Source of the DNA: Cryobacterium sinapicolor
GTDB lineage: Bacteria > Actinomycetota > Actinomycetes > Actinomycetales > Microbacteriaceae
Direction of reading: 5' to 3'
Assembly (NCBI RefSeq): GCF_004403465.1
Contig: NZ_SOGQ01000026.1
Location: forward strand, 1-64,000
Length of the DNA stretch: 64,000 nt
The notes under the pieces were generated by a model. The model searched no databases. It saw only the letters and a program-made list of their open reading frames with translations, and was not told the origin of the DNA. This document shows, one piece after another, positions 8,726 to 11,036 of this stretch. Made by a program: the position numbers and the translations under genes. Positions within the stretch are counted from its first letter, which is position 1. The number at the start of each line of letters is the position of its first letter.

Positions 8726-8783
8726 TAGCCTTGGGAGTCCAGCAAGGCGGGCGCGCTCTGCACCAGCCGGAACGGACGATACC
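8726..8783 (+). promoter_or_regulatory. putative promoter and ribosome-binding site of the trehalose gene
   Basis: TAGCCT at 8726-8731 is a good actinobacterial -10 box. A purine-rich GGAACGGA at 8769-8776 lies about 7 nt before an ATT codon at 8784. No ATG or GTG in the right frame lies between this promoter and the first conserved residues of the protein. Confidence 0.5.
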
Positions 8784-11036
8784 ATTACCTCTTCAGCTGA
8801 CCCCCTGGCATCCGCCGCCCCGAACCCCACCTACTCGTTGGTCGTGGTCTCCAACCGTCTCCCGGTCGAGATTGAGGTCGACGACGACGGGACCGAGGGC
8901 TGGCGTACCTCGCCCGGCGGCCTGGTCACCGCCCTCGAGCCCATGATGCGCAGCTCCGACGGAGCCTGGGTCGGGTGGCCCGGCATCGCCGACCGCACGT
9001 TCGAGCCGTTCGAGAACGACGGCATCTCCATCGTCCCGGTGCGGCTCAGCGAATCGGAGCTGGAGGAGTACTACGAGGGCTTCTCCAACGACACCATCTG
9101 GCCGCTGTACCACGACGTGATCGCCCCGCCGCGCTACCACCGCGAATGGTGGGAGGCCTACGTGCGGGTGAACCGGCGCTTCGCCGAAGCCGCCGCAGCC
9201 GCCGCTGCCCCCGGGGCCACGGTGTGGGTGCACGACTACCAGTTGCAGCTGGTGCCACGGATGCTGCGCGACGCGCGCCCCGACCTCGTGATCGGCTTTT
9301 TCAACCACATTCCCTTCCCGCCGTACGGGATCTACGCCCAGTTGCCCTGGCGCAAGCAGATCCTCGACGGTCTGCTCGGCGCCGACCTGATCGGCTTCCA
9401 GCGCCTCGCGGACGCAGGCAACTTCTCCCGCGCCGTGCGCCGCCTCTACGGCTACCCGACCCGCGGCGTCGCCATCGACGTTCCTGCCCCCGAGGGCACG
9501 CACCGCCGGGTGATCGCCAAGCACTTCCCGATCTCCATCGACGCGGCCGCCTACGAGGAACTGGCGCGGCGCCCCGAGATCCAGGAACGCGCCCGCCAGA
9601 TCCGGGAAGACCTCGGCAACCCCAAGACGATCATGCTGGGCGTGGACCGGCTCGACTACACCAAGGGCATCGCCCACCGCATCAAGGCATACGGCGAGTT
9701 GCTCGCCGACGGCAGGCTGAGCGTGGAAGACGTTACCCTGGTGCAGGTGGCCAGCCCCTCCCGGGAACGCGTCGGCCCCTACATCGCCCTGCGCGACGAG
9801 ATCGAACTGGCCGTCGGCCGCCTCAACGGCGACTTCTCCACCATCAGCCACACAGCCATCAGCTACCACCACCACGGCTACCCGCGCGAGGAAATGGTGG
9901 CGCTCTACCTCGCCGCCGACGTGATGCTGGTCACCGCGCTACGCGACGGCATGAACCTCGTCGCCAAGGAATACGTGGCCGTGCGCTTCGACCGGGACGG
10001 CGTGTTGGTGCTGAGCGAGTTCGCCGGCGCCGCCGACGAGCTCAAACAGGCCGTGCTGATCAACCCGCACGACATCGACGGCGTGAAGGCCGCCATCCTC
10101 CGGGCCATCGCGATGCCGCGACAGGAACGGCTGCGACGGATGCGCGCGCTCCGCCGCAAGGTCTTCGACAACGATGTCGCCGCCTGGTCCTCCTCTTTCC
10201 TCCGCACCCTGACCGAAGGAGCCGCCGTGCGTCCCGGGATCCCCGACACCCTGACCGGCGCGCTGAAGGATCTCAGCCGGGCCGACAACATCCTGGTGGC
10301 CCTCGACTTCGACGGGACCCTCGCCCCTCACGTCGACAAGCCCGAAGACGCGCGCGCCGTGGCCGGCACCCGGGAGGCCGTGCAGCGACTGCTCGACCTG
10401 GACGGCGTGCGGGTCGCGTTCGTCTCCGGCCGGGCCCTGGTCAGCCTGCAGCATGTGTCGCAGCCGCAGACCGGCGTGCTCCTCACCGGCTCGCACGGGA
10501 TCGAGGTGCAGCTGGACACTCCCGAGATCGAGCTCGACCTCGTCACCGCGGAACTCGAGCAGCTGGACGCCCTGGCCGAGGTGCTGGAGCGCATCTCCGG
10601 CAGCGTCGATGGAACCTGGATCGAACGCAAACCGGCCGGCCTCGCCCTGCACACCCGGCTGGCGACGCAACGGAACGCGGCGGCCGCGCAGAAGGCCGCG
10701 CGTGAGGAACTGGGCGAGCTGCTGCCCGGCCTGACCGTGCGGGACGGCAAGGATGTGATCGAGTTCGCGGTGCGCTCCAGCACCAAGGGCGACGCCCTCG
10801 AGCGGCTGCGCCGGCACACGGGCGCCGACCTGGTCTTCTACGCCGGTGACGACACCACCGACGAGGACGCCTTCGCCGTGCTGCGGCCCGGCGACGTCGG
10901 CCTCAAGATCGGGGCCGGCGACTCGCTCGCCGGCTACCGCGTGCGCGGCCCGGAAGACGTGCCGCTGGTGCTGGGCCTCATCGCCGACCAGCGTGCGGCC
11001 GTCGCGGCCGAGCGGGACGCCGCCGCCGGAGCGTGA
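8784..11036 (+). CDS. otsA-otsB: bifunctional trehalose-6-phosphate synthase / phosphatase (OtsA-OtsB fusion)
   Basis: The OtsA half (to about residue 490) has LVVVSNRLPVE, WPLYH, HDYQLQLVP and DRLDYTKGI, the glycosyltransferase-20 signatures that join UDP-glucose to glucose-6-phosphate. The OtsB half has the HAD motifs LDFDGTLAP and GDDTTDEDAF and removes the phosphate to give trehalose. Both steps of osmotic and cold protection are thus in one chain. Start: no ATG is in frame. The first standard codon, TTG at 8838, falls inside the conserved beta strand and has no ribosome-binding site. An ATT at 8784 follows GGAACGGA and would give TSSADPLASAAPNPTYS before LVVVSNRLP, the usual N-terminal style. 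I therefore use ATT; if that is wrong, the gene begins at 8838. Confidence 0.9.
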   Translation: MTSSADPLASAAPNPTYSLVVVSNRLPVEIEVDDDGTEGWRTSPGGLVTALEPMMRSSDGAWVGWPGIADRTFEPFENDGISIVPVRLSESELEEYYEGFSNDTIWPLYHDVIAPPRYHREWWEAYVRVNRRFAEAAAAAAAPGATVWVHDYQLQLVPRMLRDARPDLVIGFFNHIPFPPYGIYAQLPWRKQILDGLLGADLIGFQRLADAGNFSRAVRRLYGYPTRGVAIDVPAPEGTHRRVIAKHFPISIDAAAYEELARRPEIQERARQIREDLGNPKTIMLGVDRLDYTKGIAHRIKAYGELLADGRLSVEDVTLVQVASPSRERVGPYIALRDEIELAVGRLNGDFSTISHTAISYHHHGYPREEMVALYLAADVMLVTALRDGMNLVAKEYVAVRFDRDGVLVLSEFAGAADELKQAVLINPHDIDGVKAAILRAIAMPRQERLRRMRALRRKVFDNDVAAWSSSFLRTLTEGAAVRPGIPDTLTGALKDLSRADNILVALDFDGTLAPHVDKPEDARAVAGTREAVQRLLDLDGVRVAFVSGRALVSLQHVSQPQTGVLLTGSHGIEVQLDTPEIELDLVTAELEQLDALAEVLERISGSVDGTWIERKPAGLALHTRLATQRNAAAAQKAAREELGELLPGLTVRDGKDVIEFAVRSSTKGDALERLRRHTGADLVFYAGDDTTDEDAFAVLRPGDVGLKIGAGDSLAGYRVRGPEDVPLVLGLIADQRAAVAAERDAAAGA

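Follow-up and report, generated by a model that had tools for sequence, protein, structure and literature searches.

A probable otsA start codon of the AUU/AUC type, conserved in Cryobacterium and in many other Microbacteriaceae

The otsA-otsB locus and its leader

The window, a stretch of 64,000 nucleotides from Cryobacterium sinapicolor (contig NZ_SOGQ01000026.1), carries a fused otsA-otsB gene. Its product reaches 695.1 bits against the NCBIfam model NF011071 (PRK14501; cut-off 634), with both domains matched. The enzyme family is that of the known bifunctional OtsA-OtsB proteins, and only the initiation codon is unusual. The features of the locus are as follows:

8723..8731, + strand: extended -10-like element, TGGTAGCCT; 46 of the 47 distinct Cryobacterium sequences have a counterpart
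8769..8776, + strand: GGAACGGA, a weak ribosome-binding-site candidate; GGAA(C/T)GGA is shared by 45 of the 47 distinct Cryobacterium sequences
8784..8786, + strand: proposed ATT start codon of otsA; ATT 31, ATC 25 and ATG 1 in 57 Cryobacterium genomes
8787..8837, + strand: variable N-terminal linker of 17 codons, whose length varies by whole codons among relatives
8838..11036, + strand: Glyco_transf_20 and Trehalose_PPase fold of the otsA-otsB fusion (Pfam PF00982 and PF02358; NCBIfam NF011071)

The otsA-otsB frame follows a TGA stop (8685-8687) and is open from 8688 to 11036. The preliminary description had stated that no ATG or GTG lies between the promoter and the fold, and this is borne out: in-frame ATG, GTG and TTG codons are all missing from 8688-8837, and the earliest canonical codon, TTG 8838, is the one with which the LVVVSNRLP strand begins. 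As far as can be judged from the sequence, ATT 8784 is the sole sensible otsA start in the window.

In 43 of the 47 distinct Cryobacterium sequences the distance from the -10-like element to the start is 58-64 nt, and the transcript would begin approximately 45 nt before the start codon. The ribosome site, which had been described as properly placed, withstands comparison in part. GGAACGGA is separated from ATT 8784 by 7 nt and is conserved in the genus, but the Shine-Dalgarno match is weak (-4.1 kcal/mol in most of the 47 sequences); values of -3.4, -4.8 and -3.5 kcal/mol were obtained for three genes of the window that start with ATG. A G at -9 is present in 47/47. When GGAA(C/T)GGA was searched for without regard to frame, all 45 sequences having the motif (it is missing from L007 and L036) had an AT- triplet behind it that shares the frame of the fold. 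The near-fixed distance to the -10-like element together with this in-frame motif indicates that leader length is tied to ATT/ATC and that the linker keeps the frame.

The linker itself is highly variable, the distance from the start to the SNR motif ranging from 14 to 62 codons with 16 different values among 46 sequences, and remains in frame in 45/45 Cryobacterium sequences with GGAA(C/T)GGA. Among 17 pairs, changes in the linker fall on codon positions 1, 2 and 3 in the ratio 89/69/109 (p 0.011), favouring the third position; the 18 nt upstream of the start, scored in 17 pairs, have 16/15/18 changes and no third-position lean. Replacement changes number 123 and silent changes 50. Since this reflects weak constraint, the case for translation of the linker is carried mostly by conservation of the frame.

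Short G+C-rich hairpins occur just 5′ of GGAACGGA in many Cryobacterium leaders, including the window (8739-8768). Single leaders form somewhat more stable folds than their mononucleotide shuffles do (47 sequences; mean z -1.8), and an alignment of 44 Cryobacterium leaders revealed no common hairpin.

The window was also screened by synteny with one relative for further genes lacking a canonical start. Nine of the 26 ORFs kept, including otsA, were flagged, since the alignments extend beyond the true starts. Four of the eight other flags were explained: two ORFs have canonical starts by eye (GTG 22195 and GTG 34434), ORF 15144 is accounted for by its length of 342 aa, the size of IlvC, and ORF 28996 is a shadow frame. 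The leader preceding GTG 22195 (22120-22194) is open in frame and lies within a stretch 96% identical in the relative.

The start codon across Cryobacterium

Named relatives (the best 80 of 586) assign the window to Cryobacterium, family Microbacteriaceae. The genus-wide search covered 57 Cryobacterium genomes; otsA-otsB was found, and its start region read, in every one. ATA does not occur at the start and ATG occurs once, in G021, which reads CGGAACGGA TGA ACC ATG where relatives read CGGAACGGA TGA TCC ATT. The matching leader places this ATG at the position of the relatives' ATT. This sole ATG genome of the genus (locus L032) still has the leader motif, as well as the TGA two codons ahead of the start, and represents a natural reversion. 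As a control, ilvD, the gene following otsA, starts with ATG in all 42 Cryobacterium loci long enough to be read (five were too short). In G455 and G456 otsA-otsB is matched as two pieces, which suggests broken frames or assembly faults, and in Cryobacterium breve (L105) otsA yields a short open frame only.

This comparison strongly supports the ATT start originally proposed from one gene. The alignment of the codon in relatives also disposes of an ATG misread as ATT, a reading that a single assembly would have allowed but that has next to no probability now that independent genomes agree on ATT/ATC in 56 of 57 cases.

Could the ATT/ATC be an internal isoleucine codon, with the real start a canonical codon further upstream? 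The pattern at its third base does resemble that of isoleucine codons, and an upstream in-frame ATG or GTG is present in some species. However, an in-frame stop lies upstream of ATT/ATC, inside the stretch read, in 52 of the 56 ATT/ATC genomes, and no more than three codons upstream in 22 (19 of 28 in genus g77, described below). The interval from stop to ATT/ATC is devoid of canonical codons in 33 of the 56, the window included. Because the codon sits right behind stops in such genomes, it cannot be an internal isoleucine there; the reading is already contradicted, on the sequence, in species with a close upstream stop or no canonical codon before ATT/ATC, and we regard it as highly improbable.

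Somewhat less remote, though still improbable, is a start downstream, at a GTG, TTG or ATG in the linker or first strand, which would make the protein slightly shorter. Such codons exist in many species, TTG 8838 of the window being one. Against this, their positions vary between species, whereas the frame of the linker and the leader distance are conserved. Canonical codons are missing from the stop through the linker in 19/56 Cryobacterium genomes and from the stop through the SNR motif in seven (5/28 in g77), the next one lying inside the domain. In the other 37 of the 56, either a canonical codon precedes ATT/ATC or falls within the linker, or the stretch read contains no upstream stop; the ATT/ATC start of these remaining genomes rests on homology. 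Canonical starts on either side were rejected as a general explanation.

Two further routes were considered and set aside. Frameshifting from an out-of-frame ATG at -7 would apply to part of Cryobacterium, this ATG being missing from the window. Re-initiation would call for a GTG...TGA mini-frame that ends at -3, which likewise exists in part of the genus only. Both arrangements can be seen in, for example, L018, L022 and L027, where the mini-frame ends 3 nt before ATT and an ATG stands out of frame at -7.

Returning to initiation at ATT/ATC, the substitutions within the codon are informative. Its first two bases are invariant in 47/47 distinct Cryobacterium sequences. At the third base, the OtsA tree requires, within Cryobacterium, at least eight T/C switches and one change to G (46 of the 47 sequences; L105 was left out for its broken frame). 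At 67 conserved four-fold sites of otsA-otsB, G makes up 32% of the letters; at only three of the 67 does G occur no more than once, and all three have A. Six four-fold sites have T in at least ten rows, none of them as poor in G as the start codon. Conservation combined with T/C switching, without A and with a single G, implies that ATT/ATC is maintained and is neither an error nor a relic. Selection preventing the otsA start from turning into AUG would be the best explanation.

Distribution in Microbacteriaceae

The same start was found in a second, Leifsonia-like genus, g77, in all 28 genomes (ATC 24, ATT 4). In 22 of these the frame has no canonical codon from the stop to the end of the linker. 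Named Leifsonia loci (L106, L122, L125, L127, L144 and L146) read as in g77. ATT/ATC at the start position is thus conserved in 56/57 Cryobacterium and 28/28 g77 genomes, many species having no usable ATG, GTG or TTG instead. Since otsA and otsB are matched as separate genes in g77, the trait belongs to otsA and not to the fusion.

The family was sampled with 398 genomes out of a larger group, spanning 85 genera; 70 of the genera gave a match, and starts were read in 49. Beyond Cryobacterium (g1) and g77, ATT/ATC was read in 14 more genera, nine of them firmly: g85 (5/5 loci), g50 (2/2), g76 (1/2), g67 (1/2) and, with one locus each, g91, g82, g30, g29 and g93. Five are less certain because a canonical codon also occurs near or upstream: g47 (3/3, Leifsonia sp. 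Leaf264 included), g72 (2/2) and g99, g79 and g86 (one each). A Subtercola MAG (L142), which may fall within one of the coded genera, also has ATT/ATC. The start of g90 is ambiguous, and the other 32 genus codes, which have a plausible ATG or GTG, were provisionally taken as canonical. Among named loci, ATG is used in Agromyces, Frigoribacterium, Frondihabitans, Herbiconiux, Galbitalea and Microcella, and ATG or GTG in Microbacterium. Several genera other than Cryobacterium have otsA Shine-Dalgarno matches of -8 to -11 kcal/mol. The two g72 loci (L233 and L242) carry GGGAGG followed by ATC ATC; their in-frame ATG is upstream of a promoter-like GCTAGCCT, so that this ATG may lie outside the transcript.

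A quick tree was built from 173 OtsA rows, of which 76 were labelled ATT/ATC (counting the five less certain genera) and 96 canonical, with one left unscored. It requires at least ten changes between ATT/ATC and canonical states, a count that does not separate gain from loss, versus 56 with shuffled labels; 52 of its 168 inner branches are weakly supported. The pattern would suit an old trait with several losses.

IF3 and known non-canonical starts

AUU and AUC are very rare as bacterial start codons. The pcnB gene of E. coli has an AUU start and, like otsA, is a case outside infC; its enzyme is unrelated to OtsA. Very few non-canonical bacterial starts have been characterised so far, as stated in the sigR study (PMC5472188). 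The same source gives the infC start as ATT for E. coli and as ATC for Streptomyces. It describes Streptomyces sigR as starting with GTC and as repressed by IF3, a canonical codon in place of GTC leading to over-production; the sigR start is GTC in 32 of 34 species and GTT in two. Non-canonical starts discriminated by IF3 are hence an already known kind. The preliminary view that ATT starts are confined to a few self-regulated genes is too narrow, given IF3-repressed sigR (PMC5472188).

Both otsA and infC keep an AUU/AUC initiation codon across species, but infC is autoregulated by its own product whereas otsA is an enzyme gene without known feedback on IF3. Like sigR as described in PMC5472188, otsA is a stress gene of Actinobacteria whose non-canonical start is conserved. 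The two differ in that sigR has GTC/GTT, a strong Shine-Dalgarno sequence, a sigma factor as its product and a range of one genus, whereas otsA has ATT/ATC and encodes an enzyme; furthermore, the sigR start was demonstrated experimentally while that of otsA is proposed from sequence comparison. The strong Shine-Dalgarno sequence of sigR is not shared by Cryobacterium otsA (about -4.1 kcal/mol), and in our view it is no defining trait of IF3-discriminated non-canonical starts. In the open-licence literature we found no report of an AUU/AUC start of otsA or of its conservation across the family.

We propose that otsA of Cryobacterium and many other Microbacteriaceae would initiate at an AUU/AUC codon in a short leader, and that IF3 would reject initiation complexes formed on such codons, so that OtsA synthesis would be low and would vary with effective IF3 activity. 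Initiation at AUU/AUC itself is very probable. By analogy with the known cases, translation of otsA is also likely to be kept low through IF3, and we consider the whole (AUU/AUC initiation, selection against AUG and IF3-limited translation) to have a good chance of being correct. In 25/25 Cryobacterium genomes examined, that of the window included, infC, which encodes IF3, starts with ATC; this makes the suggested coupling of trehalose synthesis to IF3 level plausible.

Whether changing IF3 activity truly regulates otsA is a more tentative matter, which we think somewhat doubtful. The start may be real and yet set a constant low level, with IF3 varying too little to matter, and to this we give not quite an even chance. 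The sequence pattern indicates AUG avoidance only and, according to PMC5472188, an increase in sigR translation during oxidative stress could not be demonstrated. The direction of any control is a separate point. During cold shock of E. coli, IF3 rises relative to ribosomes; such a rise would repress otsA, not induce it.

Under AUU/AUC initiation, an enzyme gene has kept a non-canonical start across Cryobacterium, a second genus and 14 further genera (nine firmly). Gene callers limited to ATG, GTG and TTG would misplace the N-terminus of OtsA, and the ATG lineages provide a natural comparative series on the purpose of IF3 discrimination. If the link to IF3 is true, it would mean that an enzyme making a compatible solute has been under translational control for a long time. 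OtsA output in much of the Microbacteriaceae might then be, although we advance this with reserve, a read-out of the state of initiation factors as affected by growth, cold and ribosome stress.
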